Translations under genes and position numbers: made by a program
Notes under the pieces: model-generated
Seen by the model: only the letters and a program-made list of their open reading frames with translations
What the model was told of the DNA's origin: nothing
Database searches by the model: none
In this document: one piece after another, positions 47,251 to 64,000 of the stretch
How the letters are laid out: the number at the start of each line of letters is the position of its first letter
How positions within the stretch are numbered: the stretch's first letter is position 1
Assembly: GCF_035920445.1 (NCBI RefSeq)
Contig: NZ_CP109162.1
Coordinates: forward strand, 2,852,001-2,916,000
Origin: Nocardia sp. NBC_01730
Lineage (GTDB): Bacteria > Actinomycetota > Actinomycetes > Mycobacteriales > Mycobacteriaceae
Length of the DNA: 64,000 nucleotides
Direction of reading: 5' to 3'

Positions 47251-48378
47251 GTGAGTTCGTCGTCTTCCCCTCGCAGTGCCCTGCTGATCGGCGCCGGCAT
47301 CGGCGGACTTACCCTCGCGCTCGCGCTCGCGCGACGCGGCGTCACCGTAGAAGTCATAGATATCAATCCGGACCGCAACGTCGCCGGCTGGGGGCTCAGC
47401 CTCACTGGACCGAGTCTGCGAGCTCTCGATGCGCTCGGTCTCGCCGACGAGTGCATCGCCGCCGGTTACGGAATCACGGCAATCAGCAACTGCGGCTCGA
47501 ACGGGGAAGTGCGCAACATCATCCCCTTGCCGCCGCTGCTCGGTCCACAGCGTCCCAGCCAGATCGGGCTCGGCCGGCCGGCGCTGTACGACATCCTCTG
47601 CGAGGCTGCGCTGGCAGCCGGAGTCGTGATCAGCTACGGGCGCACGATCGACGGGCTGCACGACAACGGAGAAACTGTCCGGGCCACCGTCAGCGACGGC
47701 ACTGAGCGCTTCGCCGATATCGTCGTCGGTGCCGACGGGGTCCATTCCCGGGTGCGGTCGTTGCTCGGCATTCCCAGCAGTTCGCGATACATCGGGCAGA
47801 TGGTCTGGCGGGCTCTCGTACCTCGCCCGGGCTGGGCGACATCACTGCACACCTTCGCGGGCACTGGAAACAACGCTGGGCTCGTCCCGATCGCGGACGA
47901 CCGAGCGTACGTCTTCCTCACCGAGAACCAGGCGGAGCCTACCCTGATACCGGAGGACACCCTGGCCGACAGCATGCGGGAGCTGCTGGCTCCATTCAGC
48001 GGGCGAGTCGCCGAGGTCCGTGACCTCATCACCGATTCGGCGTTCGTCGTGCGGCGGCCTGTGCAGGTGGTCATGGTCGAGGGCCCATGGCACCACGGCC
48101 GCACCGTGATCATCGGTGATGCCGCGCATGCGCCCTCACCGCAATTGGTCAGTGGCGCCGCTCTCGCCATCGAGGACGGCGTTCTGCTCGCCGAGGAATT
48201 GGCCGCGGCGGCCGACGTCGAGAAGGCACTGGTCGCTTTCACACGGCGGCGGCTGGAGCGATGCCGACTGGTAGTCGAGTCCTCGGTCCGAATCGCCGAC
48301 CTCGGTCGCACCGGCCGGCACGCCGAAGCAGACGACGTGCAGCAGCGATGCCACCGAGCGATGGCTGTGCCGGTGTGA
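47251..48378 (+). CDS. FAD-dependent monooxygenase (UbiH/salicylate-hydroxylase type)
   Basis: Single-component flavin hydroxylase of 375 residues. It has GAGIGGL (14-20), the VVGADGVHSRVRSLLG motif and IIGDAAHAPSPQLVSGAALA followed by IEDG. The start is GTG with GGAG 7 bp upstream. It lacks the thioredoxin-like tail of the other monooxygenase in this window, so the two are different subfamilies. It probably works with the preceding O-methyltransferase. It is convergent with the giant gene, 37 bp apart. Confidence 0.88.
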   Translation: MSSSSSPRSALLIGAGIGGLTLALALARRGVTVEVIDINPDRNVAGWGLSLTGPSLRALDALGLADECIAAGYGITAISNCGSNGEVRNIIPLPPLLGPQRPSQIGLGRPALYDILCEAALAAGVVISYGRTIDGLHDNGETVRATVSDGTERFADIVVGADGVHSRVRSLLGIPSSSRYIGQMVWRALVPRPGWATSLHTFAGTGNNAGLVPIADDRAYVFLTENQAEPTLIPEDTLADSMRELLAPFSGRVAEVRDLITDSAFVVRRPVQVVMVEGPWHHGRTVIIGDAAHAPSPQLVSGAALAIEDGVLLAEELAAAADVEKALVAFTRRRLERCRLVVESSVRIADLGRTGRHAEADDVQQRCHRAMAVPV

Positions 48379-48415: not shown

Positions 48416-51400
48416 TCAGGTTGTACCGGAACGAGGAGTACTGCTCCAGTGGCCACGTTCGGCGGCCGGCGGCAGTGCGCCCAATCGCACATCCGGGGCG
48501 TCGGCACCGGGCCGGGCCAGCCGATCTCCGGACCGGAACTCGACCTCGGCATTGCCCTCGCTGTCCACGGCGATTCCGAAGACCCGCGAAATGCCCTGTG
48601 CCTCACGCTTGGCCACCCACGCATCGACATCCTCGTAGGTGCGCTCCACCCCGTGTTCGTCGTTCTCGCGGACCACCAACCGGCCTTGCTCATCGATCTC
48701 GACGGCGAACATGTGCCCCATCCGGGGCGCGCGCTCGAAGATCAGCGCACCAGCCACCACGCCGCGGCCGTCGCGCGCATGATCGACCAGCTCCGACAGC
48801 GACCCGAACCGCCGCCAATCGGCATCCAGCGCCGCCGCTACCGCCCCTTCGGTCACTCCCGCCAACCGCACCGTCTCGGTGTCGATCAACTCGGCAGCGG
48901 ACACGGCCTTTCCGTGCCGAGCCCGGAACAGCCGAATCCGGCGCACCACCGAAACTGCGCAATTCAGTGGGCCGGTATGAGGTTTGATCAGTGCGGCAGT
49001 GCGTAGGACGGCCACCACGTCACCGACCAGTATCCCCAGGTGCACACCGACATCACCGATATCACGCAACGGCACGGTGGCCAGTTTCTCGAAGACCCGG
49101 TCGGTCGCCTGGCCGGCATAAACCGGATTCCGCAGTAGTCGCAGCAGTCGGTTGAACACCGCCCGCTCGAATTCCTGCCGCGCGGCGGCAGCTCGATGAG
49201 CCCCGAACAGCAATGACGCCAGAGCCGCACCCGGTTCGACATGGTCGGTGGCACCGTCGGTCGACGTGGGTTTCCTCTGGTAGCCGAGATGAGCAATGGC
49301 AGCACGAACCCGACCGTCGGCTTCGCTGTTCGACAACCGACCACCATGGACAACGGTGTGCGCACTGGTGCGGCTCACGCCGGCTTCGCGGGCGACATCG
49401 GCCAGAGTCACCGCAACCGCCGGATTCAGCAGGCCGAATTCACGATAGCGTTTCTGCACCGCTATCGGGACGGCATCGCAGAGCAGATGAGCTACCCGAC
49501 GCGCACGGGAATACAGAGCGCGCTCATTGCCCTCGGTCGCCTTCGCCAGCGCGGGCACCGTCTTTCCTTCTTCGAAAACCCATCTGTAACAGGCAAGTTC
49601 GTTCTTCGAGAACAATGCGACACAATCCACCAGCAGTGCCCGATCGTGTTCGACGGCCACTCTGGCCAGGAGCATCGCATCCTCGTCGCTGCGCGGCTTA
49701 CCCTGAGACAGGGTCTGCGCCAGGGCTTTCGCGATCCGTGTCCGGTGGATGTAGACCGCGTTCGGCGACCGACCGGGCTGTAGTCGAACCACCTTCTCGA
49801 CGTCTTTGCCCTCGACGAACAGCCAGGTGGCAACCTGCTGATCGGTCGAAGGCAACTGTCGAACAGCCGCCCGCAACTGGGCTTCCGATGCTGTCTCGAT
49901 CGCTCGCAGGGCCCACGCCTTTTCGCGAGTTCGGCTGCTCCGATTGTCTTCACGATTACGGAGGATCTGCTCGGCCAGCGCCGGAACTGTCGCCGTATCC
50001 AGCTGACCTGAGTCCTCGCTGTCACCGACTTCGTCCAAGGGGGTTTCGGCATCCGGATCGCGCCCATCGATCCGGGCCTGGTAGTAACTGCGCACCTCGG
50101 GGTCGAGGTCGAAGCCGAGTTGATCAGCCACCATAAGCAGTCGTTTCGCGGTGTCCAGGCTGACATTGGGATCCTTGGCGGACATCCGCCATATCGTCGT
50201 CCGGCTGGCGCCGGCGGCCCGTGCCAACGCGGAAATCGACACGGTGGGGTCCGGTCGGTCGCGATGAAAATCCCACACTGCCGGATCCACTTCGAACCCC
50301 CGGCGCTCGACAGCCGCGAGCGCCCGCAATGCGGTCCCCTTGGCCACATCCAGATCACCGTTCACGGCTCGGATAACGGTCACCCTGGATATACCGACCT
50401 GCTGTGCGATCTCGTCCAGCACCCCGGATAACCCGTGCTGGTGCGCGATCCCGTCCAGCGGAAACGCCGGTGTGGCATACCGCGACCGTGGCGGAACGGC
50501 CGCAAACCCAGGCACGGGGCTGTCCACATGCTGGACGTCGTAGAGCGCGGGAAGATCATCGTCGATATCGATCGGTTGGGGTCCGACCTCCATCTGCAGT
50601 CTGCGGGTCAGCTCATCGAGCAAATCACCGTCCAGTTCCCGCAGCGTGTCCTGGTCATAGCTGAACCGCAGCTGTTGCCGCTTCGCCCATTCAGCCATCG
50701 CACGCCCGGATTCCGCCCGCGGCAGACCACCGGCGAATCGCTGTCGCAGCCATCGCCGCTGCAAGGGTTTCATCCGGTCCAGGCACCGCTCCAGCACCTG
50801 CGGATCGGCATCGAGCAATGCCCGGAATCGCGGCGACCCGGATGTCCAGCCCGCCGCCACCGCGGTCGAAAGCCGCGCCCGGAATTCCTCGAATCTCAGC
50901 TGCTCCGGCGACATGTCCTCGGACAGACGCGATTCCAGTGCGCTCAACACTTCGCCGACAACCCGCGGCAGCGGCCCAGGCACCCCGACGTTGCGCGCCT
51001 CGACCTCGATCACGTCCCGCATCCGCGTGCGCACCGCCGAATCGCTTGCGATCACTGTCGCGTCGAATATCGGACTCGCCTGCGGCTCAATGGATTCCGT
51101 CACATGATCCGGTTCGGAAGACGGGGTGGGGTCGGTAAGTCTGCGGTAGAACGCCCGCACTCCGGGCAGTCCAATCCCTTTCGAGGCGGCGACCGCCAAT
51201 ACCCGCGACACAGTCGCCGCATCCACCACCGGACTGCAGCGCAGTATGCTCGCCACCTCGGCTTCCGGCACACCCGCGGCATGTGCCAGCGCGGCCACAT
51301 CCACCCGTGCCCCGACCATGAACCGCCGCTTGCCTTCCCGGGGCTGCTGGCCGGGCTGGAGTTCGTCCATCGGCTCGCCGTCGGCGAAGAGGAACGCTTC

Positions 51401-54400
51401 CACTGTCATGACGCCGGCTGGCTTGTGCCAATCCGCGAACGGCGTCAGCTCCGCCTCGTGGCCGTCGAACTCGAGCACCCACACCCGGCCGTCGTCGCCG
51501 CGGAACATCACCACCGCATGCCCACCGGCAGCACCGAAATCCAGTACCCCCAACACTGTCTTCCCCGCTGCCGCCTGCTCGGCAAGGTCATCCACCGTGT
51601 CGAAGTCGCGCGCGTCGGCGCCCACTGCCTCGGCGGCGACATTGATATCCACCCCGGCTGCGGCGATCTCGCCCTCGGCCACGGGCAGCGGGTGCCGCAA
51701 CCGGATACCACGCTTCTCCAGGAACCGGAACGCCACCGACATACACAATCGCGGTCCGGCCCCGGCGCGGTGTGCCGCCTGCTGGGGTGCGGTGGCGTTG
51801 TCGGTGTCGGCGGACTCGCCGTCCGAAACCGACGACTCGCGGGCGAAAAGTGACGACTCGCGGGGCGGTGTTGCGGTGTGGGGCAGGACGGCCGCGGTTA
51901 CCACGAGGTCGGGGGTCGCGGTGAAATAGCCATCGAAGGTTTCCAGTGGCGGGCCGCCGTCGTTGGCGCTGCGGTCGTCGACCAACAACCGGGCGGTGAA
52001 GGTGCCGGCCACTGGGTCGACAGTGACCAAGATGTTCTCGGAGTTCAGCCGACGTCCGGTCAGCGGGAACCAGGCTTTGAAGACGCTCTCCTTGGCGGAC
52101 ATCAACAACGAGCCCCACCGGATGCGGTCGCCCCGAGCGGCAAGCTCGCGCAGGTGCTCCTGTTCCTCCGGCCGCAGCCCAGTGGCCGGACCTTCTTTCA
52201 TCAGGAGCATGCTGCGTTCCGCGTCGATACCGAGGGCCCGCAATTCGGCCGACAGCGCGGCCGCCGCAAGGTAATACCCGCGAGTATGGGTGATCGAGCC
52301 GATGACCCCCGTCTGCCATTCCGGTGCCTTCATGGCCAGGGCGCTCATGCCCGGGGTGGGCTCCGGCCGCAAGATCGGCACCTCCGGGAGACCGAGGCGC
52401 GCCAGGGCGCGGCGGGCGCAGGTGCGGCCGTTGACGATCTCTCGCACCCGATGCGGCGGCGTGCCATCCTGCAGCAGCACCTGCTCCGCGGGCAGCAGCT
52501 CCGCAGTCGGGTCGTCGCCGACGATCTCCACCGCCGCAACCCCGGCGGGCAGCCCGACCCGGTCGGCGATGGCCACATCGAAGTCCAGGTCGCTGACCCG
52601 CACCGGGCTGCCGGGGTGCCCGGACAGCAGCGGGACGTCCAGCACGACCGCGAGATGGCTGTTGTCCGGAACCACGTCATTCGGGGCGATAGGTTCCCCC
52701 GCGGCCGGGATCCCGCGGATGAGGCCCGCCGGCGCCTGACCCGCCGCCACCATCGCCGCACGGTCGCGGCCTTCCCCGAACGCCACCTCCGGCTCGCCGT
52801 TGCCATACACCCCGACACCACACACCCCCACCACACCCACATCCCCATCCCGGTTCTCCCGCTCCGCCGCCCACCTCTCGATCGCCTCCTCCCCCACAAT
52901 CTTTCGCGTCTCACCCGCCGCATCGACCTCCACAACCTCCAACACACCGTCCGCGCTGTGCCACACCCCGAACGCGTGATCACCCATCACCACCGGCCCG
53001 TCGGTCCGACGCACCCCGAACCGCATCACCCCACCCAACGCACCACCGTGGTCCCGCACCCACTGGACGGCATCCATCAGGGACGCGAAACCACCCTCGT
53101 GCCAATCACCACCGATCTCACGAGCAAACGCCTCTTCCTCGACCGTGCTGCCGAGGTTGTCCAACGCCTGCTGCACCTGCGCCGGATCCACTTCCTCCCC
53201 CCGTGCGCGGGCGATGAACTCCACCATCCCGGCCACCACCGGCGGCGCGCACTCACCCGCTCCTACCAGAGGCGGCCGATATCCCAACTCCGCGATCGCT
53301 TCCCACACCCGCGCTGCAGTCGCCTTGCCGACCTGCGGCCCCTCGAGCGTCGGTCCGTAACGCAGCACCCACCCCACCGTGCGCCGGTTCACTCCGACCG
53401 TTCGCGCCACATCGTCCTGCGTCACGGTGTTCTGCGCTACCCGCGACCGTCGCTGACCGGGCCGCAACATCCAGAATTCCCGAACCACCGGATCCACTTC
53501 GAGGCCCACCACGTCTGCTGCCGCTATCACCCGCCGCGCAGTGGTTCCGCTGATTCGAGGATCCCTCGCGAGCACCCGCGACAACGTCGACTGATTGATC
53601 CCGAGCAGATCCGCCACGACGTTCTGTGTGAGGCTTGCCAGGGCGTCCCCGAGCGCTTCCTGCACCCCCTGGGCCAACGCCTCGACAGTACTGCCGTCCC
53701 ACCAGGTCATCATTTCCGGCCGGAACCTGATCTGCCGCCCTTCGGCGGCTTCCGACCGGGTCACCGCCGATGCGGCCGATGCCCGTGGCAGGCCGCGCGC
53801 GAACCGCGCCCGCAGCCATCTTTGCCGTGCCGGTTCCAGATCCCGCAGGCACCCCTCGACGACGCTCCGGCTCGCCACTGCCACGGCCTGCAGAAGCGAT
53901 GTCCTGGGTTTCGCGGCGGCCATGACCGCGACCAGCAACCTCGCCCGGAATCGTTCGAAACTCACATCCTTGCGGGAGATTCCGTCGCCCAGATACACCT
54001 CCAGCATGGCCATCACCCGACGGATCACCTCAGTCGCCTTGGCTTCGGGCAGCTGCATCGTTTCCACCGTGAACGCAACCGCCTGATGGAACTGCTCGCG
54101 CACCTCGGCGAACGGCATCGTCTCCGCGACCGCGGGACGGTATGGCGCGGTGCCGTAACCCCGTTCCGCGGCGAGGGTTTCCAGGAGCTCCTGATAGGGA
54201 GCGCGAACCGCCGCTGGCACGTCGATCCCCATCCGGTCCGCCTCCGCCAGCACCAGCGCTGCCTTCTCCCAATGCACCGAGCCGTAGTTCCGCAGCACCC
54301 GAGAAACAACGCCCGGGCTCACCCCGACCCGCTCTGCCAAGGCGACCAGCGTGGTGTTGCCCGACTGCACCGGCAGCCTGATCCCGAGTTGGTCGGCAAC

Positions 54401-57400
54401 GTCCGCCACCGCTGTCCAGACCCCGCGATGCACTTTCCGGCCGTCGAAGACATGCTTCACCCGTTGTCTCGACACCCCGGTCGCACGGGAGACGACAGTC
54501 GCCCCTGCGGGCAGGACCAAACCGAGGCCGTCCCCCTCGGGGCCTAGACCACGAAGCACCCGGCAACCCAGGCTTTCGGCACCCGCGACCGCCTGCTGCC
54601 GATTCGTGGCAGATGTCCCCCTATCGTCACCGTTGAAGACCTGCGCCGCCACGTCTCTCTTCAACGCGGCTTTCTCCGCCACATCGATCAGCCGCACCTT
54701 CAGTTCGCTGCGACGCAACCGGAGTCCCACCCGGCGAGCGGCATTCAGGATCCGTTGTCGTACCTCCGGTTCCACCTCGGGCTCGCCGAGGATGCCGTCG
54801 ACGACCTGATAGACCGTCTCTCGATCCACCCCGGCCAGGCGAGCCACATCTGCCGCGGTCGCCCGCCGCACCGTCCCCACAGGCGTGTGCAATGGACTGC
54901 CACCGTCGGCCAGCAGCCCGGCCACCACAAGCTCGGCCACCGTGCCAAGGGTCGTACATCGGACCCGCAACGCCGCGGCATCCAGTCCGTCGACCTCACC
55001 GAGAAGGTCGACGGCGGCCCCGCCGTCGAGGAGCCACCGCCGCATCCTCTGCAGTTCATCGGCAGGGAACCGGCCCGCACCATGACGCCGCACTATCGCG
55101 GTGAGTCCAGCAGGGTCGTCCGCGCAGGCAGCGGCGACAACCGCGAGTGCTTCGGCGACGGTCCGGGTGTCCACGCCGATCACATACTCCGCCAACCGCA
55201 AGACCGCCGAACGCTCCAACGACTCGACAGTCGCTGTGTCACAATCCAACTCGGCCGCGATGACGGCGACAGGACGTCCGTGGACAACGCGCGCCTCGGC
55301 AATCACGGCCTCGTCTGCGGAGATCAGCCGGTAGGCACGCTGCCAATACAACGCGACCTTCACCAGCGCCGGATCGTTGCGCTGGGTCTCGACCACCAGC
55401 CTCGTGGCACGAGCGGTGACCTCCGGAGTGACCACGGCGGGCTCGTGCGCCATCCGCCGCAGCGCCGCCGGACTACTCTCCGCCACAACATCATTCGGTG
55501 CGATATGCGCCCCCGCGGCCTCGGCCGGGATGCCGCGGATCGGGCCGGCGGGGGCCTGGCCCGCCTCGATCATCGCGGCGCGGTCCCTGCCCTCCTCGAA
55601 CGCTGTCGCCGGCTCACCATCGGAATACACCCCGATCCCACACACCCCCACCACGCCCACGTTCCCACCCCGATTCTCCCGCTCCGCCGCCCACGCCTCG
55701 ATACCGCTGTCGCCCTGGATTTTTCGCACTTCACCGGCACTGTCGACCTCGACAACCTCCAGGACGCCGTCGGCGTTGTGCCACACTCCGAACGCATGGT
55801 CGCCGAGAATCACCGGACCGCCATCCCGACGCACCCCGAACCGCATCACCCCACCCAAGGCACCATCGTGGTCCCGCACCCACTGGACGGCATCCATCAG
55901 GGACGCGAAACCATCCTCGTGCCAATCACCACCGATCGCACGAGCAAATACCTCCTCCTCAACCGCCGCACCCAGATCCAGCACCTGGCGCAACTGCGCC
56001 GGATCCACCTGCTCACCGCGAGCCCGCGCAATAAACTCCACCATCCCCGCCACCACCGGCGGCACACACCCACCCGGCCCCACGGCCTCCGGGCGATACC
56101 CAATTTCCGCGATCGCCTCCGACAAGCGGTCGGCTGCTTCCTGCGGGGGCGCGGGGTCGGTCGACGATTCGGGGAGTCTGTTCAGGCTCTGGGTGAGGAT
56201 TGCGACCACTCGGCGGGCACCGGTCCTCAGGTGTTGGCGGAAGACAGCGGGCTCCATGCCCAATTCCGCGGCCAGGATGGGCTGCGCCGGCTGGTCTGGG
56301 GCCTGCTGGACCCACAGTGCGACGCAGCGGGCCTGGTCCGAGTTATGGTTCTCCAGCGTGGCGATCGCGGCCTGCAGTGCGGTCAGGTTGTGTTCGTGTG
56401 CATCGGCGAGCATCAGCATGCGCTTGCCGCGCAGCGGCGACTGCACCGACAGGAACCTGGTCAGCCAGGCCGCACCGTTGTCGGCGTGCTCGATCACCTG
56501 GGCTACCGGCAGGCCCAGCTGGGCGGCCACTGTCTCGGCGGACAGCCGGGTGTCGGTCAGCACCATCGACTCGACACATTTCCATTGGATCTCGCTGTTG
56601 CGCCGCAATTTCCGGAGTGCGACCGCCAGCTCCCACGGGCGTTCGACCTGAGCCGGGATCAGCGCGAGCCGCAGCTGGGTGTAGCGCGCTCCCTTCCATT
56701 CGGCAGCGAACTGTCCCAGCACTTCCTGCGCCGCGGCGCGTACCTCGCCGGCGGCCACCGCCAGCTGCCCCGCCAGCTGGGTATGCGATGCAGGTGTGTC
56801 ATGGTCGAACAGGAATTGCAGGACATTCCGTTGCAGTCCGGTGAGTTTCGGCAGCATCATCTGCAAAAGGGCACGCTGCGTGATGTTCGCCATCATCATC
56901 CGCAGCTGTTCGATCGGATCGACCTCCGCCAGAATCGCCTCGGCGGAGTGGCGGTCTTCCCAGAACTGTCGCACCGCTGGATCCACCGGTATCCCCAGCT
57001 CTTCGGCCTTCGCCAATACCCGGAACACCGTCGTCTCCTCGACCGGCTTCCCGTTCAGCACATCTGTCACCATCGCCTCGGACGCCCCCACCGCATCCGC
57101 CACCTGACGGTGTGTCACCCGCCGCGGTGGATCGGGCAGCCCCTGCCAGAACTCCCGAACCCCCGGATCCACCGCGAGCCCCTTCTCGTCTGCCATCGCC
57201 AACACCCGCAACGCCGTCGCCTTGCTCACCGTCCGATTGCGTTGAAACACCCACCTAACTGTTAAATTACTCACTCCCAGTGCATCCGCTACGGCGCGCT
57301 TCGTCACCGGCGGCTGCGGACCGGGCTGCGCCTCCCAAAACTCCCGAACCCCCGGATCCACCACCAAACCCATCCCCTCGGCTACCGACAACACCCGCAG

Positions 57401-60400
57401 CGCCGTCGCCTTGCTCACCACCTCCGGTTTCCGACCCAGCACATTCCACACCGTCGTCCTGCCCACCCCCAGCGCATCCGCAACCTGGCGATACGTCACC
57501 CGCGGCTGCGGATCGGGCTGCGCCTCCCAAAACTCCCGAACCCCCGGATCCACCGCGAGCCCCTTCTCGTCTGCCATCGCCAACACGCGCAATGCGGTCG
57601 CCTTGCTCACCTCCGGTATCCCACCCAGCACATTCCGGAACGTTGACTCAGCCACCCCCACCGCAGCCGCCATCTGGCGATACGTCGCCTGCGGCTGCGG
57701 ATCGGGCTGGCCCTCCCAAAACTCCCGAACCCCCGGATCCACCGCGAGCCCCTTCTCGTCTGCCATCGCCAACACCCGCAACGCGGTCGCCTTGGTGATA
57801 TACGGACTCGCGCACGCCAGCGCCCGCGACACCGTCGCCGTGCCCACCCCCAGCGCATCCGCCACCTGTCGATACGTCACCCGCGGCTGCGGACCTGGAT
57901 ACGTCCGCCAAAACTGCTGAACCACCGGATCCACGGTCAGACCTAGGGTTCTGGCCCACTCCAGCACCCGCAAGGCGGTCTCTCGACTCATCGGTGTGCA
58001 GCTGAGCACCCGCGATACCGTCGCGCCGCTGACCCCAGCCCTACGCTCCAGCTCAGCCTTCTTCCCCCGCGGCCACGGCGCGACCGGGGTCGGGATCGGG
58101 GCATGGGTCGGTGCCTGGATCGAGCTCGAGGTCTGGGTCTGGGTCGGGGTCGGGGTCGGCGATACGAGCGCCTCCTGCACTCGCAAGGCTAATGCTTCCA
58201 CGGCATTGGCATCCAACTCGGCCTGGATGTCCTCGGTGTAGCCGAAACGAGAGACGTGCGCGATGTCCAACTGCGACAGCGCCTCGACCGCCTCGGCCCG
58301 TGCTCGGCCGCGCAGGAACCGCTCCACCAGCCATATCCGCCGCCTCTGGGGCATCTCGCGCACACATCTCTGGATGACCCCCCGATCCGCGGTCGCCAGG
58401 ACATTCCGCGTCGTCCCTTCCAACGCGATCTGCGCCGAGACAAGCACGCGGACCCGAAACATCTCGAAACCCACGTCGTCTGTGCTGATTCCGGCTTCCA
58501 GACGTTTCTCCGTCGTTGCCATCACGCGGTCGACGATCTCGGTGGCGTCGGGTTCGGTCAGCTCCAGCTGCGCCACGGCGGTCCGCACCGTCCGTTGGAA
58601 CTCCGCACGCACCTCGGTAAAGGCCACCATGTTCGGTCCGCCGGGATGCGGCACCGCGCCGTCGACAACCCCCGGACCGCCGATACGGCCCCGGCCATCG
58701 GACGGGCCCGGTGGCGGCGGTGGGGATTTCGGTCGAGTCCCACCGGCTCCGCCGTCGCCATCGTCGTCCGAACCCCAGCCGTCGCGGGCACCGATCCGCA
58801 CATTCGGACCGTGTCGCTTCGGCGGCCCCCCGCCCAGCGGGTGTTCCGCGTCGCCACCGCGCTTGAACACGATCGCATTCACGTCTGCCACCACGTGCCC
58901 GGCGCGCACCGCCCAGGCATCCAGATCCTGCTCACGCACTACACCGCCGTCGACGGTGTTGTCGAACACCACTGTCTCGCCGAGCCGCAACCCCTGCTTC
59001 GGGAACTGCTGCTGCAGCTCCTCGGTCACCTCGACCACGGCGAATGCGTGCGCGCCCACCACTTTCCCCCGATGGACCACATCCATGGCCCCGGCTATCA
59101 GCCCGCCGTTCTCACGCACGTGGACGATCGCCGCCCGCAGCCCCTTCGCTCCCGTGCCGATCGGCTCCACCCGCCAATCGGCATCCAGGCCTCGCGCAAA
59201 ATCCGCCCCGGTCATACCATTCGCGGCGATGTCCTCGTCCACCGTTATCGGACGCACCCCCCGGCCTGTCACCGGCCCCAAGGCTGTTTTGACGATCTTC
59301 TGCACCCAGTTGCCGCAATCCTTCGGCCCCTCCCTCCGCAGGTGTGCAACCACTTCGTCCCGGTCCGGAAGAAGCTCGTAGAAACGGCGCACTTTCGCCG
59401 GCATCGGGTAGCCGAGCTCGTCCGCCGCAGCCAACACCCGCCGTGCTGTCGCTTTACTCACCAACGGACTGCATGCCCGTACCCGTACCACGGTGGACCT
59501 GGTCACCCCGGCCGCGTAAGCCACGTCCTCCGCGAACACCCGTTCGGGCTGAGCCTCCCAGAACTCACGGTCCTCCGGTGTGCTCCCCCACCCTGCCCGC
59601 TCGGCCTCCGCCAACACTCGCAATGCGTTACGTTTGCTCACCTGCCCCGTACTGCGCGTGAACACCCGACTCACAGTCGACTGATCCACACCGATCGCGC
59701 GCGCCAACTGCTCCTCGGTCATGGGCGCCGACCTTGCCAATGGACGGGCACCGATATCGGTGTCTTCGAAATCGACGCCAATTCCGGCGGAGGATTCCTC
59801 GCCGGGGCCCAGCGGGTGCTCGGCGGTGCCGTCGGCATTGAGGACGATGCCGAAAACGCCGACCACGTCGGGTGGATGTACCCACTTCTCGAAGTCGACG
59901 ACGCGGCCGTCTTCTTCCACCACGACCCGGTCGCCGTCCAGGCGCACACACACCGCGTGACCGCCGATGGTACGGTCGGCGAAACCATCGAAGACCATCA
60001 TCGCGATCACCGCACCGCCGTGGGCGGCAACATGGGCACGGACGTCGTCCATGGATGCGAAGCCGCCCTTGTGCAGGTCGGCGCGGACCAATGTCGGCGC
60101 GATGCGCATCGGGGTTCCCGCGGAGCCGGAGCGGAACTGTGCCAGTTCCGAAGGAATTTCGGCACCCACCGCGGAAAACGCGGCGCGGGCGGCATCGTCG
60201 AAGCAGGTGGCCAGCGGCTGCGGTCGGCGCTGGACATCCACCGGGAGATAACCGGTCGCACCGTCCATCGTCCCCTCGGCGAGCACGGTCTCGGCCGTCG
60301 CACCGGCCAGGTCCACCAGGCCGGCGCCCAGGCCACGGTCCAGATGCGTCAGCATTGCGTCCAATTCGGCGACCCGAGTCGCCGCTTCGGCCATGGCACC

Positions 60401-63400
60401 GAGATCACGGACCCGCTCGGCCACCTGCCGCTGCTCACCCTGCAGCAACGGTCCGGCCAACAGGTCGGCGACCCGGTGGTGGGGCAGTTCGCCGGCAGTG
60501 AACGCCAGCTCGGCGCCCTGGGCATTCCGCAGCATCCGTTCCAGCTCGGCGCGAGACCGCTCCCGCATCCGCCGCAGCTGCGGCGGGGGCAGTGCGGGGT
60601 CCTCGTCGAGCCCCACCGCCAGCTGCATGAGTTCGCCGAAACAGGCGTCGCGCCTGCCGGCGAACTGTTTCCGGCGCACGACGAGGTCGTGCAGCCGGTT
60701 CGCGTAGCCGGTCTGCGCGTACCACCGCAGCCGCCACTCGTCATGGTTTTCGGCGGCATCGGCGAAGTCGTGCATGAGCAGGTACCGCTCGGCGGTGTCG
60801 AGCTGCTGCTGCGAGGCGCCCGGCGCGTGTGGCCCGATCTGCCAGGCGCGCACGGTATCCGGGGTCACCGTTGCCGCCGTCCATCCCGGCAGCCGTTGCA
60901 CCTGTGCGGTCAGGTGTGTGCGATGCTCACGCAGCGTGTCCAGCTCGAAACCGGATTGCGAGGTGATCGGCCGCGGATATCCGAACCGCTCCCGGTAGCT
61001 GTTGCTCGCGTCCCGGTAACGGCGGTCGGCCACCTGGTAGTGGGCGTGGGTGCGGCGCAGGGTGGCCTCCGCGTCGTCGAGGCGACGAATCCAGGTGTCG
61101 GCCGCGACGAATTCGTCGAGCGCGGCGATCACCACGCCGAATTGTCGCACCCGTTCGTTCGCCACCGCCCACTCCGGGCTGTCCGGATCGGCGGGCAGTC
61201 CTGGGGGGTGCTGGATCGGGTCCATGGCCAGCAACGCGGCCAGCTCGGCTCGCTCGACGTCCAGCCGGGACCGGTCGGCAGCTCCCGGTTCCACCGGATC
61301 GATTGGGACCAAGAATTCAGCGCTTCGCTGGGCCAGTTCCGCTCGGGCCCGCGTCCGGGCAGCCATGGCCTCGGCACGGAATTCGGCGGTAGCACCGGAC
61401 AGGACGTCCGCCCCATCGCGCCCCCGGTATGCGGTGGGTTCGACCGGCACATCGACCAGCACAGCATGCAGTGCGTCGTACCGCTGCACCAACCGCTCGG
61501 TGTGGTCGACCCCCTTGGCGGGGTCGTTCGACAACCGGCGGATCTCTTCGGCGAGCTCATCGATTCGAGCAGCCTGGGCGGCCTGCCGACGGATCTCGTC
61601 GACCGACCCCACACCCTGTTCAAATCGGGCCTGCGTCCCGTACCCCGCATCGGCAAACGCGCCGAGTTGTTCGTCCAACGTCCGCAGCCGACCGGCTTCG
61701 GTGACCTTGGCCATCAGGTGGTAATACATCCGGAAATCCTCTTCGGCGTCAAGGGATTCCGGTGACTTGGTGGCGTCATCGATCCGCGCCTGACCTTCGA
61801 GGAAAGCGCGAGCGTTCCGGTCGTCCATCAGCGCTTCCGCGGAAATGTCGAACAATCCGGCCACCTTGGCCCGTGCTTCGGAGAGCCTGCCGAACCAGAA
61901 ATTCCAGCCCGACGATCCCAGCGACAACAACTGAGCCACGTAACTGGTCTCGTTCACGTCCAGATCGACCAGCAACGGGCGGAACCAGTCTTCGAGCTCG
62001 CCGATCAATTGTTGCGCCCGCTGCTGTGCATCCCGCCGCAACCCTGCCGTCGGCTCCGGCAACGTGAACGCCCCGACATCCGCGGCGGGGCCTGCGGCAC
62101 CGATCTCCTCGGGCGGTCCGCCATCGTCACGGTGGTTTCCATCCCCCGGCTCCGGCATGGCTCCGATCTGCCCGTCCGGGCCACGACCGGGGCTGGGTCT
62201 GCCCCCGCGCAAGGGTCGTTTGCGGTTGCCATCCTCGTCGAAGACGATGCCGTCGATCCTGCCTATGCCATCCGCGTCGGCCGCCACATCCACCCAGGGA
62301 GGAACCTCCGGCTCGCGCATCTCCAGGATCTGTTGGGTACGCAGCAACAGGTCATCCATCTGCTGCTCGAGGTCGTTCAATGTCACGCTGAGCAATCCGA
62401 ACTCGGGATCATCGGCCTGCGACAGGGCCAGCTCGTCGAGTCGGTCCTCCACCTCGACGAGGTGTCGGCGCGTTGTGCGCCACCGGGCGCGCACCTCATC
62501 GAGCCCGCTGCGCGCCGCACGTAGCAGGACTAGTCGTTCTCGCCACTGTTCGGACACCTCGCGCGCGGCCACCAACTGCGCCTGCACCACCGGGTCGTGC
62601 GGAGCGAGGCCGAGGGTGGCGGCCTGCCGGGCGGCGTCCCACCGCGACTCATGCGCGCTGCGCAAGGTCTGTTCCAACCGGTCGAGCACCATGATCCGGT
62701 CCGTTGCCGCGAAGAACTCAGCGGTGAACTGGTACGCCTCGTCCAGACGTTGCACCGCTCGGAGGACGTTCATCTCTTCCTGGCTGCGCCCGCCCTGTGC
62801 CAGCAGTTCCCGGACTCGACGCGGGGTGAGCTCCCCCACGCCGAGGCCGGTATGGTCCAGCTGAACGAAGAGCTCGACCAACTGAACCCGATCGCCGTCC
62901 AGCCGCTCCAACTCACCGGAATTGTGGGGGTTGGCTCCGCGGGCCTGCATCTGGACGCTGCAGACGGCCAGCCAGGCAGCCTGCATTTTCCGGAATGCGA
63001 CCAGCTCGGGGCCCAGACCGGTGAAGACGGTGACGGACCGCTCGGCGGTGGGCCAACGCTGCGCCGCGCCGGCCAGGCCGTCATCCAGGGCGGACCGCAG
63101 GTCGAGGACGGCGACCTGCTCACGCATCTCCACGAATTGCACTGCCTGCACCTGGAGAATCGGTTCGTCGGGCAGGAGCTCGACCAACTGCTCGCGGGTC
63201 ACCGTCTTCAGGTCGACTCCCGGCGGCAGGTCTGTGACCATCATCACTCCGGCCAACGCGAACCGTTCCCGCAGGGCTGCTTCGCTCTCGACATCCGGCA
63301 CCTGACCGGACTGCGACAGTCGATCCTGTATCTCGCGCAGCTCGTGCGCCGCCCGGCCGAGCCGAGCCGCCTCCGTGGCCACCGACCGGAAGGTGTCGGC

Positions 63401-64000
63401 ATGCTCGCCGCCCCGCCAAGACTCCGAATACGCCTCGAACAGCGCTGCTTCCAGCGCGTCGATCTGCCGCACTCGCTCGGTGTATCGGTCGGCCACGGCG
63501 AACATGGCCACATCGCCGTGCAGGTCCACAAACCGCGCCGCGGCCGAGTCCACTTCGTCTGAAAGAGATCCCTGCGTTTGCATTGTCGCCAGTTCCGCGA
63601 TGAGCAGATGCGGGTCGGGGAAGCGCCGGCCCAGTATCCGCTCCAGCCGCTCATGCGCCTGCTGGTACGCAAAGTCCAGTTCCAGTCGCGCCGAGGAACT
63701 CGGGTTACCGAAATCCTCGATATCGAACGCCTGCAACAGGTTCGCCTGCATTTCCTCCGCCTGCCGCTCGGCGGTGCGCCGCATGCCGATCAGCGTCGAG
63801 TGCAGTCGACCCTCGGCGAACTCCGGTGAATCCTCCGGCGGCGGGGACGGCGGACCGTCCCCGGCACCGTCGCCCCTACCGCGACCGCCGGAATCCGGTG
63901 GCGGCCCGTCGCCGTCCCCGGCCGAGCCGTCGGATGTTCCCGCCGGGGTGTGCGCCCCCGGACCGTCGCCGGAGACCGACGCCACCACCCGCCCCGCACC
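48416..64000 (-). CDS. Giant mosaic protein, >=5,194 aa, N terminus outside window
   Basis: One continuous frame of 5,194 sense codons from the right edge to TGA at 48416-48418. The first visible residues are a Gly/Pro/Asp-rich linker, so the true start lies beyond 64000. Order in visible residues: helical N-terminal part (about 50-1260); papain-like module 1 (Cys1266); two LacI-type HTHs; module 2 (Cys1562); Pro-rich linker; sigma-like module (about 1790-1947); six tandem LacI-type HTHs (about 1978-2356); three sigma-4-like HTHs; module 3 (Cys2645); four LacI-type HTHs; second sigma-like module (about 3291-3452); two HTHs; module 4 (Cys3584); phosphopantetheinyl transferase (about 3781-4044); module 5 (Cys4086); HTH; third sigma-like module; two HTHs; two sigma-4-like; one HTH; module 6 (Cys5014). 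No membrane segment or signal is visible. I recall giant nocardial proteins labelled toxin glutamine deamidase, but no defined function. Confidence 0.9.
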   Translation of the reverse strand, partial: GAGRVVASVSGDGPGAHTPAGTSDGSAGDGDGPPPDSGGRGRGDGAGDGPPSPPPEDSPEFAEGRLHSTLIGMRRTAERQAEEMQANLLQAFDIEDFGNPSSSARLELDFAYQQAHERLERILGRRFPDPHLLIAELATMQTQGSLSDEVDSAAARFVDLHGDVAMFAVADRYTERVRQIDALEAALFEAYSESWRGGEHADTFRSVATEAARLGRAAHELREIQDRLSQSGQVPDVESEAALRERFALAGVMMVTDLPPGVDLKTVTREQLVELLPDEPILQVQAVQFVEMREQVAVLDLRSALDDGLAGAAQRWPTAERSVTVFTGLGPELVAFRKMQAAWLAVCSVQMQARGANPHNSGELERLDGDRVQLVELFVQLDHTGLGVGELTPRRVRELLAQGGRSQEEMNVLRAVQRLDEAYQFTAEFFAATDRIMVLDRLEQTLRSAHESRWDAARQAATLGLAPHDPVVQAQLVAAREVSEQWRERLVLLRAARSGLDEVRARWRTTRRHLVEVEDRLDELALSQADDPEFGLLSVTLNDLEQQMDDLLLRTQQILEMREPEVPPWVDVAADADGIGRIDGIVFDEDGNRKRPLRGGRPSPGRGPDGQIGAMPEPGDGNHRDDGGPPEEIGAAGPAADVGAFTLPEPTAGLRRDAQQRAQQLIGELEDWFRPLLVDLDVNETSYVAQLLSLGSSGWNFWFGRLSEARAKVAGLFDISAEALMDDRNARAFLEGQARIDDATKSPESLDAEEDFRMYYHLMAKVTEAGRLRTLDEQLGAFADAGYGTQARFEQGVGSVDEIRRQAAQAARIDELAEEIRRLSNDPAKGVDHTERLVQRYDALHAVLVDVPVEPTAYRGRDGADVLSGATAEFRAEAMAARTRARAELAQRSAEFLVPIDPVEPGAADRSRLDVERAELAALLAMDPIQHPPGLPADPDSPEWAVANERVRQFGVVIAALDEFVAADTWIRRLDDAEATLRRTHAHYQVADRRYRDASNSYRERFGYPRPITSQSGFELDTLREHRTHLTAQVQRLPGWTAATVTPDTVRAWQIGPHAPGASQQQLDTAERYLLMHDFADAAENHDEWRLRWYAQTGYANRLHDLVVRRKQFAGRRDACFGELMQLAVGLDEDPALPPPQLRRMRERSRAELERMLRNAQGAELAFTAGELPHHRVADLLAGPLLQGEQRQVAERVRDLGAMAEAATRVAELDAMLTHLDRGLGAGLVDLAGATAETVLAEGTMDGATGYLPVDVQRRPQPLATCFDDAARAAFSAVGAEIPSELAQFRSGSAGTPMRIAPTLVRADLHKGGFASMDDVRAHVAAHGGAVIAMMVFDGFADRTIGGHAVCVRLDGDRVVVEEDGRVVDFEKWVHPPDVVGVFGIVLNADGTAEHPLGPGEESSAGIGVDFEDTDIGARPLARSAPMTEEQLARAIGVDQSTVSRVFTRSTGQVSKRNALRVLAEAERAGWGSTPEDREFWEAQPERVFAEDVAYAAGVTRSTVVRVRACSPLVSKATARRVLAAADELGYPMPAKVRRFYELLPDRDEVVAHLRREGPKDCGNWVQKIVKTALGPVTGRGVRPITVDEDIAANGMTGADFARGLDADWRVEPIGTGAKGLRAAIVHVRENGGLIAGAMDVVHRGKVVGAHAFAVVEVTEELQQQFPKQGLRLGETVVFDNTVDGGVVREQDLDAWAVRAGHVVADVNAIVFKRGGDAEHPLGGGPPKRHGPNVRIGARDGWGSDDDGDGGAGGTRPKSPPPPPGPSDGRGRIGGPGVVDGAVPHPGGPNMVAFTEVRAEFQRTVRTAVAQLELTEPDATEIVDRVMATTEKRLEAGISTDDVGFEMFRVRVLVSAQIALEGTTRNVLATADRGVIQRCVREMPQRRRIWLVERFLRGRARAEAVEALSQLDIAHVSRFGYTEDIQAELDANAVEALALRVQEALVSPTPTPTQTQTSSSIQAPTHAPIPTPVAPWPRGKKAELERRAGVSGATVSRVLSCTPMSRETALRVLEWARTLGLTVDPVVQQFWRTYPGPQPRVTYRQVADALGVGTATVSRALACASPYITKATALRVLAMADEKGLAVDPGVREFWEGQPDPQPQATYRQMAAAVGVAESTFRNVLGGIPEVSKATALRVLAMADEKGLAVDPGVREFWEAQPDPQPRVTYRQVADALGVGRTTVWNVLGRKPEVVSKATALRVLSVAEGMGLVVDPGVREFWEAQPGPQPPVTKRAVADALGVSNLTVRWVFQRNRTVSKATALRVLAMADEKGLAVDPGVREFWQGLPDPPRRVTHRQVADAVGASEAMVTDVLNGKPVEETTVFRVLAKAEELGIPVDPAVRQFWEDRHSAEAILAEVDPIEQLRMMMANITQRALLQMMLPKLTGLQRNVLQFLFDHDTPASHTQLAGQLAVAAGEVRAAAQEVLGQFAAEWKGARYTQLRLALIPAQVERPWELAVALRKLRRNSEIQWKCVESMVLTDTRLSAETVAAQLGLPVAQVIEHADNGAAWLTRFLSVQSPLRGKRMLMLADAHEHNLTALQAAIATLENHNSDQARCVALWVQQAPDQPAQPILAAELGMEPAVFRQHLRTGARRVVAILTQSLNRLPESSTDPAPPQEAADRLSEAIAEIGYRPEAVGPGGCVPPVVAGMVEFIARARGEQVDPAQLRQVLDLGAAVEEEVFARAIGGDWHEDGFASLMDAVQWVRDHDGALGGVMRFGVRRDGGPVILGDHAFGVWHNADGVLEVVEVDSAGEVRKIQGDSGIEAWAAERENRGGNVGVVGVCGIGVYSDGEPATAFEEGRDRAAMIEAGQAPAGPIRGIPAEAAGAHIAPNDVVAESSPAALRRMAHEPAVVTPEVTARATRLVVETQRNDPALVKVALYWQRAYRLISADEAVIAEARVVHGRPVAVIAAELDCDTATVESLERSAVLRLAEYVIGVDTRTVAEALAVVAAACADDPAGLTAIVRRHGAGRFPADELQRMRRWLLDGGAAVDLLGEVDGLDAAALRVRCTTLGTVAELVVAGLLADGGSPLHTPVGTVRRATAADVARLAGVDRETVYQVVDGILGEPEVEPEVRQRILNAARRVGLRLRRSELKVRLIDVAEKAALKRDVAAQVFNGDDRGTSATNRQQAVAGAESLGCRVLRGLGPEGDGLGLVLPAGATVVSRATGVSRQRVKHVFDGRKVHRGVWTAVADVADQLGIRLPVQSGNTTLVALAERVGVSPGVVSRVLRNYGSVHWEKAALVLAEADRMGIDVPAAVRAPYQELLETLAAERGYGTAPYRPAVAETMPFAEVREQFHQAVAFTVETMQLPEAKATEVIRRVMAMLEVYLGDGISRKDVSFERFRARLLVAVMAAAKPRTSLLQAVAVASRSVVEGCLRDLEPARQRWLRARFARGLPRASAASAVTRSEAAEGRQIRFRPEMMTWWDGSTVEALAQGVQEALGDALASLTQNVVADLLGINQSTLSRVLARDPRISGTTARRVIAAADVVGLEVDPVVREFWMLRPGQRRSRVAQNTVTQDDVARTVGVNRRTVGWVLRYGPTLEGPQVGKATAARVWEAIAELGYRPPLVGAGECAPPVVAGMVEFIARARGEEVDPAQVQQALDNLGSTVEEEAFAREIGGDWHEGGFASLMDAVQWVRDHGGALGGVMRFGVRRTDGPVVMGDHAFGVWHSADGVLEVVEVDAAGETRKIVGEEAIERWAAERENRDGDVGVVGVCGVGVYGNGEPEVAFGEGRDRAAMVAAGQAPAGLIRGIPAAGEPIAPNDVVPDNSHLAVVLDVPLLSGHPGSPVRVSDLDFDVAIADRVGLPAGVAAVEIVGDDPTAELLPAEQVLLQDGTPPHRVREIVNGRTCARRALARLGLPEVPILRPEPTPGMSALAMKAPEWQTGVIGSITHTRGYYLAAAALSAELRALGIDAERSMLLMKEGPATGLRPEEQEHLRELAARGDRIRWGSLLMSAKESVFKAWFPLTGRRLNSENILVTVDPVAGTFTARLLVDDRSANDGGPPLETFDGYFTATPDLVVTAAVLPHTATPPRESSLFARESSVSDGESADTDNATAPQQAAHRAGAGPRLCMSVAFRFLEKRGIRLRHPLPVAEGEIAAAGVDINVAAEAVGADARDFDTVDDLAEQAAAGKTVLGVLDFGAAGGHAVVMFRGDDGRVWVLEFDGHEAELTPFADWHKPAGVMTVEAFLFADGEPMDELQPGQQPREGKRRFMVGARVDVAALAHAAGVPEAEVASILRCSPVVDAATVSRVLAVAASKGIGLPGVRAFYRRLTDPTPSSEPDHVTESIEPQASPIFDATVIASDSAVRTRMRDVIEVEARNVGVPGPLPRVVGEVLSALESRLSEDMSPEQLRFEEFRARLSTAVAAGWTSGSPRFRALLDADPQVLERCLDRMKPLQRRWLRQRFAGGLPRAESGRAMAEWAKRQQLRFSYDQDTLRELDGDLLDELTRRLQMEVGPQPIDIDDDLPALYDVQHVDSPVPGFAAVPPRSRYATPAFPLDGIAHQHGLSGVLDEIAQQVGISRVTVIRAVNGDLDVAKGTALRALAAVERRGFEVDPAVWDFHRDRPDPTVSISALARAAGASRTTIWRMSAKDPNVSLDTAKRLLMVADQLGFDLDPEVRSYYQARIDGRDPDAETPLDEVGDSEDSGQLDTATVPALAEQILRNREDNRSSRTREKAWALRAIETASEAQLRAAVRQLPSTDQQVATWLFVEGKDVEKVVRLQPGRSPNAVYIHRTRIAKALAQTLSQGKPRSDEDAMLLARVAVEHDRALLVDCVALFSKNELACYRWVFEEGKTVPALAKATEGNERALYSRARRVAHLLCDAVPIAVQKRYREFGLLNPAVAVTLADVAREAGVSRTSAHTVVHGGRLSNSEADGRVRAAIAHLGYQRKPTSTDGATDHVEPGAALASLLFGAHRAAAARQEFERAVFNRLLRLLRNPVYAGQATDRVFEKLATVPLRDIGDVGVHLGILVGDVVAVLRTAALIKPHTGPLNCAVSVVRRIRLFRARHGKAVSAAELIDTETVRLAGVTEGAVAAALDADWRRFGSLSELVDHARDGRGVVAGALIFERAPRMGHMFAVEIDEQGRLVVRENDEHGVERTYEDVDAWVAKREAQGISRVFGIAVDSEGNAEVEFRSGDRLARPGADAPDVRLGALPPAAERGHWSSTPRSGTT
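48480..48965 (-). other. Papain-like module 6, C-terminal domain of the giant protein
   Basis: Cys5014 in GPLNCAVSVVRRIRL, His5096 in RMGHMFAVEID, acidic LVVRENDEHGVE, tail SRVFGIAVDSEGNAEVEF and RLGAL just before the stop. As the last domain it occupies the place of the toxic tip in polymorphic toxins. Confidence 0.55.
51370..51750 (-). other. Papain-like module 5 of the giant protein
   Basis: Cys4086 in GPRLCMSVAFRFLE, His4161 in AGGHAVVMFRG, acidic VWVLEFDGHEAEL. The tail is MTVEAFLFADGE and then MVGAR, followed directly by an HTH. Spacing between Cys and His is 75, the shortest of the set. Confidence 0.5.
51870..52660 (-). other. Embedded 4'-phosphopantetheinyl transferase domain
   Basis: About 260 residues (visible 3781-4044) with the EntD/Sfp layout: the substrate-side HRVREIVNGRTCARRAL, VIGSITHTRGYYLAAAA, the Mg-binding GIDAE with Asp3926, and MSAKESVFKAWFP with Lys3970 and Glu3971. 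All core motifs of an Sfp-type enzyme that primes carrier proteins with phosphopantetheine are there. It is in frame within the giant protein, flanked by papain-like modules 4 and 5. No carrier, condensation or ketosynthase domain is seen in the visible protein. Confidence 0.85.
52780..53265 (-). other. Papain-like module 4 of the giant protein
   Basis: Cys3584 in GAGECAPPVVAGM, His3675 in VMGDHAFGVWHS, acidic LEVVEVDAAGE, tail VGVCGVGVYGNGE. A near copy of module 3. The phosphopantetheinyl transferase domain follows about 40 residues downstream. Confidence 0.55.
55600..56085 (-). other. Papain-like module 3 of the giant protein
   Basis: Cys2645 in GPGGCVPPVVAGM, His2735 in ILGDHAFGVWHN, acidic LEVVEVDSAGE, tail VGVCGIGVYSDGE. 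About 80% identical by eye to module 4 over roughly 200 residues, so the two arose by recent internal duplication. Confidence 0.55.
56935..58070 (-). repeat. Tandem array of six LacI-type HTH repeats, about 63 residues each
   Basis: Six consecutive units share the frame VTYRQVADALGVGTATVSRA, then SKATALRVLAMADEKGLAVD and PGVREFWEAQPDPQP. The first and last units have diverged; the middle ones are near-identical even in DNA (for example the 57,160-57,200, 57,545-57,590 and 57,735-57,780 blocks). Each unit looks like a LacI-family HTH plus hinge-like helix without a ligand domain. Confidence 0.8.
58835..59330 (-). other. Papain-like module 2 of the giant protein
   Basis: Cys1562 in GPKDCGNWVQKIV, His1651 in VVGAHAFAVVEV and the acidic ETVVFDNTVDGG. 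The CGNW start and FDN end are the closest of the six to polymorphic-toxin glutamine deamidases as I recall them. The tail reads NAIVFKRGGDAEHPL, then RIGAR. Confidence 0.6.
59810..60215 (-). other. Papain-like module 1 of the giant protein
   Basis: Cys1266 in PLATCFDDAARAAF, His1348 in IGGHAVCVRL 82 residues later, and acidic VVVEEDGRVVDF form a plausible Cys-His-Asp set. The module closes with VVGVFGIVLNADGTAEHPL and a DIGAR tail. I infer a papain-fold deamidase or peptidase. Confidence 0.55.
60220..63850 (-). other. N-terminal helical/coiled-coil region of the giant protein
   Basis: About 1,200 residues rich in Ala, Glu, Arg, Gln and Leu with heptad-like spacing and few Gly or Pro, except a Pro/Gly-rich break at about 62,050-62,210. 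The pattern suits long alpha-helical bundles as in WXG100-like or polymorphic-toxin scaffolds. Just before the break, IDGIVFDEDGNRKRPL (about 62,215-62,275) looks like the tail of a papain-like module whose Cys/His part is missing. Confidence 0.55.

Follow-up and report, generated by a model that had tools for sequence, protein, structure and literature searches.

The window analysed here is a 64,000-nucleotide stretch of the Nocardia sp. NBC_01730 chromosome (contig NZ_CP109162.1, positions 2,852,001-2,916,000; the genome is a single contig of 8,676,891 bases, with a completeness of 99.94%), and it closes in a minus-strand reading frame that runs for 5,194 codons (48416..64000) without a stop. 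A preliminary description of this DNA had reported a single frame of at least that length and judged it a real giant gene. Both statements are borne out, the first being an understatement: the frame continues beyond the 64-kb window in contiguous chromosome to a TGA at 101237-101239, giving 17,606 open codons (48416..101236 in the coordinates of the extended window). The first residues encoded in the window are not an N terminus, as the frame ends about 37 kb beyond the window edge. The open reading frame (ORF) of the head begins at 102273 in another frame. We refer to this gene as W and to its sisters in the same genome as A, C, D, E and F.

W is a real gene, as judged from stop codons, codon-position composition and substitution patterns. 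It contains no in-frame stop, against 295 ± 18 expected from shuffles that preserve codon-position composition. When W is divided into 58 windows of 300 codons, guanine-cytosine (GC) content is lowest at the second codon position in 57; the one deviating window is close to the start. The same signature is continuous along giant C (172 of 173 windows). Since 295 stops were expected, none was seen and the codon signature is continuous, a chance open frame in GC-rich DNA is ruled out. Among pairs of duplicated segments, which were the first entries of a 428-row list rather than a random sample, the ratio of nonsynonymous to synonymous substitution rates (dN/dS) is below 1 in all 15 rows, two of which are a single module pair of the window with two choices of flank (0.22 and 0.24). 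Values range from 0.21 to 0.75, with 0.73-0.75 in two recent pairs, 0.74 in one older pair and 0.21-0.58 in the other 12 rows. By eye, the first ~190 codons of the frame look like out-of-frame low-complexity sequence, and coding of the W body therefore probably starts after them.

The element that recurs throughout the giants is a papain-like module, already recognized in the preliminary description. Its profile aligns 143 rows over the six giants, with 5-36 per gene, some of them doubtful (residues 12888-13028 of W, for example, read as a helical linker). An AlphaFold model of the module (first sequence, 48458..49003; predicted local distance difference test, pLDDT, 80.9; predicted template modelling score, pTM, 0.81) and a fold search agree on a papain-like fold, with C39 leader peptidases among the fold matches. 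Catalytic residues occur in the order Cys, His, Asp/Asn/Glu, and the aligned rows hold Cys in 113/115, His in 123/141 and Asp or Glu in 104/142 cases. Both Cys and His are kept in 110 of the 115 aligned modules, cysteine being otherwise scarce. The module is predicted to adopt a papain fold with a Cys-His-Asp/Glu triad. Successive modules are separated by a median of 617-907 residues in five giants and of 1,315 in F, and two of the six giants, W and D, end in such a module.

A search of PDB sequences returned no match for the module. The Pfam family Tox-PL1 (PF15644, Gln_amidase) was reached by one of 11 modules at an E-value of 0.11, and a segment of giant E scored 22.6 bits where 24.1 are required. 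Because these values lie below the Pfam cut-off, we do not assign the module to Tox-PL1, despite the similar setting and catalytic pattern. A conserved cleavage motif following the modules was unconvincing: a short motif occurs near the ends of 35 of the 143 rows, compared with 10% of 5,000 random places.

Between the modules lie helix-turn-helix (HTH) and enzyme-like domains, for which the preliminary description also proves accurate. LacI-type HTH domains give at least 42 matches in the genome, a lower bound since the search scored 150 of 245 candidates; 37 fall in the six giants, two in a separate 6,034-codon frame and three in frames of ordinary regulator size. Eight are in W, all inside the window, and a Pfam scan of three overlapping tiles of W lists 13 LacI HTH stretches. 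Sigma-70 region 4 clearly exceeds the cut-off upstream of the window (40.5 versus 25.7 bits) and barely passes inside it (25.7 versus 24.1 bits). The single 4'-phosphopantetheinyl transferase domain of W aligns with the structure 6qwu at 127.8 bits, including the GIDAE and AKE motifs, which places it among PptT-type domains; it lies far under the NCBIfam cut-off for PptT itself (126.5 versus 365 bits), and related domains occur in giant E. The head region also gives a weak PP2C-like match (27.6 of 230 bits). HExxH motifs, compared with shuffles, number 7 versus 2.1 in C, 6 versus 0.85 in F, 4 versus 1.35 in E, 2 versus 0.6 in W, 2 versus 1.4 in D and 0 versus 0.55 in A.

The Pfam analysis covered the whole of W in ten tiles, and the last 800 residues plus nine segments of the other giants. 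No nonribosomal peptide synthetase (NRPS) or polyketide synthase (PKS) domain is among the Pfam and NCBIfam matches listed for the ten W tiles (25 of 32 families for one tile), in keeping with the earlier remark that the gene fits no pathway enzyme. We reject an NRPS or PKS on this ground, as a lone PptT-type domain does not make a carrier-protein line. An EsaD-type nuclease is likewise absent from the Pfam matches listed for W. NCBIfam matches to staphylococcal SD-repeat adhesins are confined to a low-complexity tract and were taken as spurious.

Table. Features of the giant frame W within the window.
Feature	Position	Strand	Basis
C-terminal 5,194 codons of the 17,606-codon giant frame W	48416..64000	-	open frame, codon signature
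Papain-like module, extreme C-terminus	48458..49003	-	profile, AlphaFold, fold search
LacI-type HTH	49274..49408	-	genome profile search
LacI-type HTH, below Pfam cut-off	50294..50419	-	genome profile search
Papain-like module, Cys and His kept	51293..51787	-	profile
4'-phosphopantetheinyl transferase domain, PptT type, GIDAE and AKE kept	51884..52552	-	sequence match to 6qwu
Papain-like module, 80% identical to 55514-56110 (pair dN/dS 0.22-0.24)	52694..53287	-	sequence comparison
LacI-type HTH	53273..53416	-	genome profile search
LacI-type HTH, below Pfam cut-off	54728..54853	-	genome profile search
Papain-like module	55514..56110	-	profile
LacI-type HTH, below Pfam cut-off	57185..57292	-	genome profile search
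LacI-type HTH	57755..57871	-	genome profile search
LacI-type HTH, below Pfam cut-off	57941..58045	-	genome profile search
Papain-like module	58772..59359	-	profile
LacI-type HTH	59408..59527	-	genome profile search
Papain-like module	59729..60247	-	profile

The head of W is a 646-aa ORF with its ATG at 102273, in a frame different from that of the giant body, whose low-complexity start it overlaps. Head and body form a single frame in A, D, E and F and separate frames in W and C, the split falling in a low-complexity tract; the regions concerned are 100333-102279 of the extended window for W and chromosome 6935792-6937726 for C. A, D and E, which carry the same shared head as W, read through from head to body. 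The split in W and C may be a sequencing error, a switch or a broken gene. All 12 head-domain members match WXG100_2 (PF25547) at E ≤ 0.01, the best at 1.1e-21; this family also covers the head of CpnT. Glycines are invariant, or nearly so, at positions 239 and 243, 242 and 246, and 266, 270, 274 and 278 of the head alignment, a glycine-zipper-like pattern. The PDB sequence search with the head returned nothing beyond designed coiled coils and some further weak matches. On this comparison the head is predicted to be WXG100_2-like with a glycine-zipper-like stretch.

Searching the named genome collection with the head profile yielded 24 loci, all of them Nocardia, in which the genes next to the head could be compared. 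Upstream of W are genes of 163, 121 and 547 aa. The first belongs to the YbaB family, passing the Pfam YbaB/EbfC cut-off with 35.5 versus 25.5 bits, and has a homologue in 21 of the 24 named loci (one of the remaining three has almost no upstream sequence); no YbaB-like ORF is listed upstream of giant A. For the 121-aa gene a resemblance to EspC was considered and dropped, Pfam giving no credible match in its support. The 547-aa gene has homologues in seven of the 24 loci plus one fragment, and homologues of 507-614 aa adjoin all six giants, at the head end rather than behind the tail, in F on the other strand. The predicted fold of these proteins includes the EsaG-type (DUF600) immunity fold; Pfam finds a YezG-like domain in five of seven orthologues (best E 0.011, under the cut-off), and the PDB sequence search gave no match. 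Elsewhere in the genome three EccD genes score above the cut-off, and one of them lies about 19 kb beyond the end of giant C.

A search of the same genome with the head domain found four further copies at 99-100% identity and one divergent copy at 26%. The corresponding six giant frames have 17,606 (W), 17,118 (A), 52,074 (C), 36,589 (D), 32,451 (E) and 28,643 (F) codons. They add up to 184,481 codons, or 6.38% of the genome, and the masses computed for their products range from 1.85 to 5.68 MDa. The largest, C (chromosome 6936835-7093059), spans 156 kb and has a computed mass of 5.68 MDa. The DNA of W, A, C, D and E is 96-99% identical for 9-14 kb, from the upstream genes through the first 1,850-3,370 codons of W's giant frame, and then gives way to divergent tails: in the first 3 kb past the junction, nothing in C can be aligned to W, and A, D and E align to it only in patches of 69-76%. 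The giants thus have the constant N-terminal and variable C-terminal parts of polymorphic toxins. For modules in the variable region, 119 of 122 have a match; 29 of them find their nearest neighbour within their own gene and 90 in a different one, compared with 23 ± 5 same-gene neighbours expected from label shuffles. Judged by their sequences, the modules behave as one pool common to the six genes. An exact internal repeat of 440 residues (100%) occurs in E, and the tail of C holds four copies of a stretch of 380-480 residues, two tested pieces of which match alpha/beta hydrolases.

Some observations concern individual loci. Giant F (chromosome 533836-619767) has the divergent WXG100_2 head (50.3 bits) and only five papain-profile rows. 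ORFs of 285 aa that share their first 70 residues sit upstream of E and downstream of F and appear transposase-like by eye. After giant A lies a 1,274-aa ORF (chromosome 763482-767306) with matches to the major facilitator superfamily and one papain-module match (39.1 bits), and it may therefore be a strayed tail piece; the genome search with the module scored 150 of 264 candidates, so its counts are lower bounds. The 6,034-codon frame (chromosome 3214936-3230373), with a WXG100_2 match of 43.2 bits and two LacI HTHs, is perhaps a smaller relative of the giants.

The head domain was found in the genome studied, in 31 of 35 further Nocardia genomes and in none of 24 genomes that belong to other families of the order. 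Of 150 Nocardia genomes, the present one included, at least 89 have a module match, and at least 16 have one in a frame exceeding 10,000 codons. Across the order, at least nine of 397 genomes have a module match. Two of these nine lie outside the genus, and their matches are marginal (E 3e-4 in a frame of 116 codons, E 7e-4 in one of 101). These counts are lower bounds, as at most 22 candidates were scored per genome in the genus and eight in the order-wide search. Among 12 other Nocardia, most of them chosen for their long frames, heads of the same type start module-bearing frames of 40,807, 33,513, 21,415, 17,205, 16,139, 15,942, 15,040, 14,683, 11,280 and 10,828 codons, among others, and the single-contig assemblies G147 and G146 are among those with long examples. 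A further frame of 11,938 codons in G109 has a partial head match (49.3 bits). Frames of 27,381 codons in G005 and 16,858 codons in G103 have no listed head match, and many other heads in the 12 Nocardia start short frames. The preliminary description had named the lack of any fold and of relatives in related genomes as what would speak against the gene; what we find is a predicted papain-like fold and, in other Nocardia, both homologues and intact frames of great length.

Taken together, we consider it fairly probable that the six giants are polymorphic toxins linked to type VII secretion, enlarged to megaproteins as tails were swapped and modules captured. The head and the small partner genes would bring the chain, or pieces of it, to the ESX machine and the envelope, while the EsaG-fold protein would either shield the producer or hold the chain export-ready. 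Inside a rival or host cell the papain, HTH, transferase and hydrolase modules would then act; the papain-like modules could be peptidase or deamidase effectors, scissors that cut the chain, or both. Recombination between the identical heads would swap the tails. The giants are likely exported, toxin-like weapons of a predicted type VII secretion family.

The preliminary description had offered a type VII-delivered polymorphic toxin as one reading, with HTHs that would bind target DNA. The WXG100_2-related head, the YbaB-like gene, the gene with a predicted EsaG fold, the three EccD genes and the constant head with its variable tail support the toxin reading; other results weigh against it. 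W's own head scores 20.2 bits where the PF25547 cut-off is 27, and a genome search with PF25547 reports none of the five shared heads, only that of F (50.3 bits). By eye, no immunity gene is apparent after the stop codons among GC-filtered ORFs of at least 60 aa within 5 kb (1.4 kb after C), and the model of the immunity fold is poor overall (pLDDT 56, pTM 0.39). In W and in the 52,074-codon C, head and body lie in different frames, and neither is therefore shown to make one chain. No residue occupies the Cys column in 28 of the 143 module rows, so some modules are degenerate or false. In four of the 12 Nocardia, long module frames lack a listed head (G018, 20,955 codons; G031, 16,387; G075, 9,794; G098, 16,299), and protein database searches within limited length ranges returned no relative outside the window. 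To our knowledge, LacI, sigma and PptT domains do not serve as toxin warheads, and we know of no type VII substrate that approaches the giants' size.

A bolder version would make the giants a megaprotein arsenal: polytoxins of 2-6 MDa, each with one export head and interchangeable effectors, in which papain modules are both scissors and weapons and the heads are recombination handles that swap tails of 40-150 kb, letting one genome reshuffle a stock of effectors, about a hundred of them papain-like and tens of them DNA-binding. We consider this less likely than not.

Several known systems share parts of this arrangement; in the following we draw on parts of the cited papers. CdiA and Rhs toxins combine a constant N-terminal part with a recombining variable C-terminal part that is a short warhead, whereas in the giants the variable part is most of a chain of 17,000-52,000 residues. 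Tox-PL1 domains of type VII toxins have been described by Zhang and colleagues as either the C-terminal toxin or an internal releasing peptidase (PMC3482391). Those actinobacterial toxins resemble the giants in their WXG-type N-terminal head, papain-like Cys-His-acid pattern and variable tail, and differ in that the giants hold 5-36 profile rows over tens of thousands of codons, with HTH and metabolic-enzyme domains in between (PMC3482391). CpnT of mycobacteria, too, is preceded by small partner genes and joins an N-terminal export domain to a C-terminal toxin; unlike the giants it has one such toxin, an NAD (nicotinamide adenine dinucleotide) hydrolase, its operon figure includes an immunity factor, and neither papain arrays nor gigantism are described in the parts used here (PMC7810871). 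EsaG of Staphylococcus aureus, the antitoxin of the type VII-secreted nuclease EsaD, offers a parallel to the linked gene with a predicted EsaG fold, although EsaG neutralises a nuclease and here the domain is within a protein of 507-614 aa (PMC9616950). The giants of Omnitrophota, such as the 39,678-aa protein of Velamenicoccus with 42 predicted transmembrane helices, are likewise single bacterial frames of tens of thousands of codons; in contrast to the shuffled catalytic and HTH modules of Nocardia, they have few annotated domains and are read in terms of adhesion or predation (PMC10066038). The portion of the "neglected giants" survey used here does not name Nocardia in its main text (PMC11573180), and no paper on giant Nocardia proteins or toxins of this kind was among the literature matches listed (for one search, 12 of 435).

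The same modules could serve a different end if each giant were a self-cutting polyprotein, its papain-like modules being mainly releasing peptidases that free separate effectors during or after export. We think this unlikely but worth serious attention: the module spacing (medians of 617-907 residues, 1,315 in F) would fit it, internal Tox-PL1 domains have been proposed as auto-processing peptidases (PMC3482391), C39 leader peptidases are among the fold matches, and export should be less demanding for pieces than for whole chains of 1.85-5.68 MDa. The motif near module ends is too infrequent for a general site, however (35/143 against 10% at random places), and in W and D a papain-like module occupies the very end of the chain, where a warhead usually sits. 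The giants might instead be surface or intracellular scaffolds, structural or regulatory proteins whose catalytic-looking modules have binding roles. Proteins of such size are known from giant ORFs of Omnitrophota, which have been read as adhesin-like (PMC10066038). The HTH modules would fit DNA binding in the producer, with 37 of the at least 42 LacI matches in the six giants, and the SD-repeat adhesin matches, taken as spurious, point the same way. But catalytic Cys and His are kept in nearly all aligned modules in proteins otherwise poor in cysteine, the head and linked genes look like toxin-immunity operons, and no adhesin domain is among the Pfam matches listed for W; having no positive evidence of its own, the scaffold reading seems to us quite improbable.

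We are slightly more doubtful still that the tails are a decaying graveyard of recombination, silent module cassettes that are selected only once they stand behind a working head. The head lies in another frame in two of the five shared-head genes, dN/dS reaches 0.73-0.75 in two recent pairs and 0.74 in an older one, and exact repeats of 440 residues occur. A decaying tail should nevertheless gather stops, of which W has none against 295 in the shuffles, while dN/dS is 0.21-0.58 in the other 12 rows and similar genes are intact in other Nocardia genomes. That ordinary genes were falsely joined in the assembly is very improbable. Assemblers are known to stumble over near-identical stretches such as these heads of 9-14 kb, but the genome is a single contig of 99.94% completeness, the codon signature is continuous in W (57/58 windows) and C (172/173), and same-type heads on long module-bearing frames recur in other assemblies, including the single-contig G147 and G146.

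If such a chain is made whole, it tests how far transcription, translation and protein export can be stretched in bacteria; if it is cut, it would represent a cellular polyprotein toxin. In both cases experiments could address a sizeable part of some Nocardia genomes, in a genus with many cultured members, and the EsaG-fold neighbour provides a direct way of asking if the giants are weapons. A protein of about 85,000 residues has reportedly been presented in a preprint. The 52,074-codon frame of C exceeds the 39,678-residue protein of Omnitrophota, the longest in the papers cited here (PMC10066038).

At the other border of W, a gene at 47251-48378 is convergent with the giant's stop; by eye it resembles a flavin adenine dinucleotide (FAD)-dependent monooxygenase and appears unrelated.
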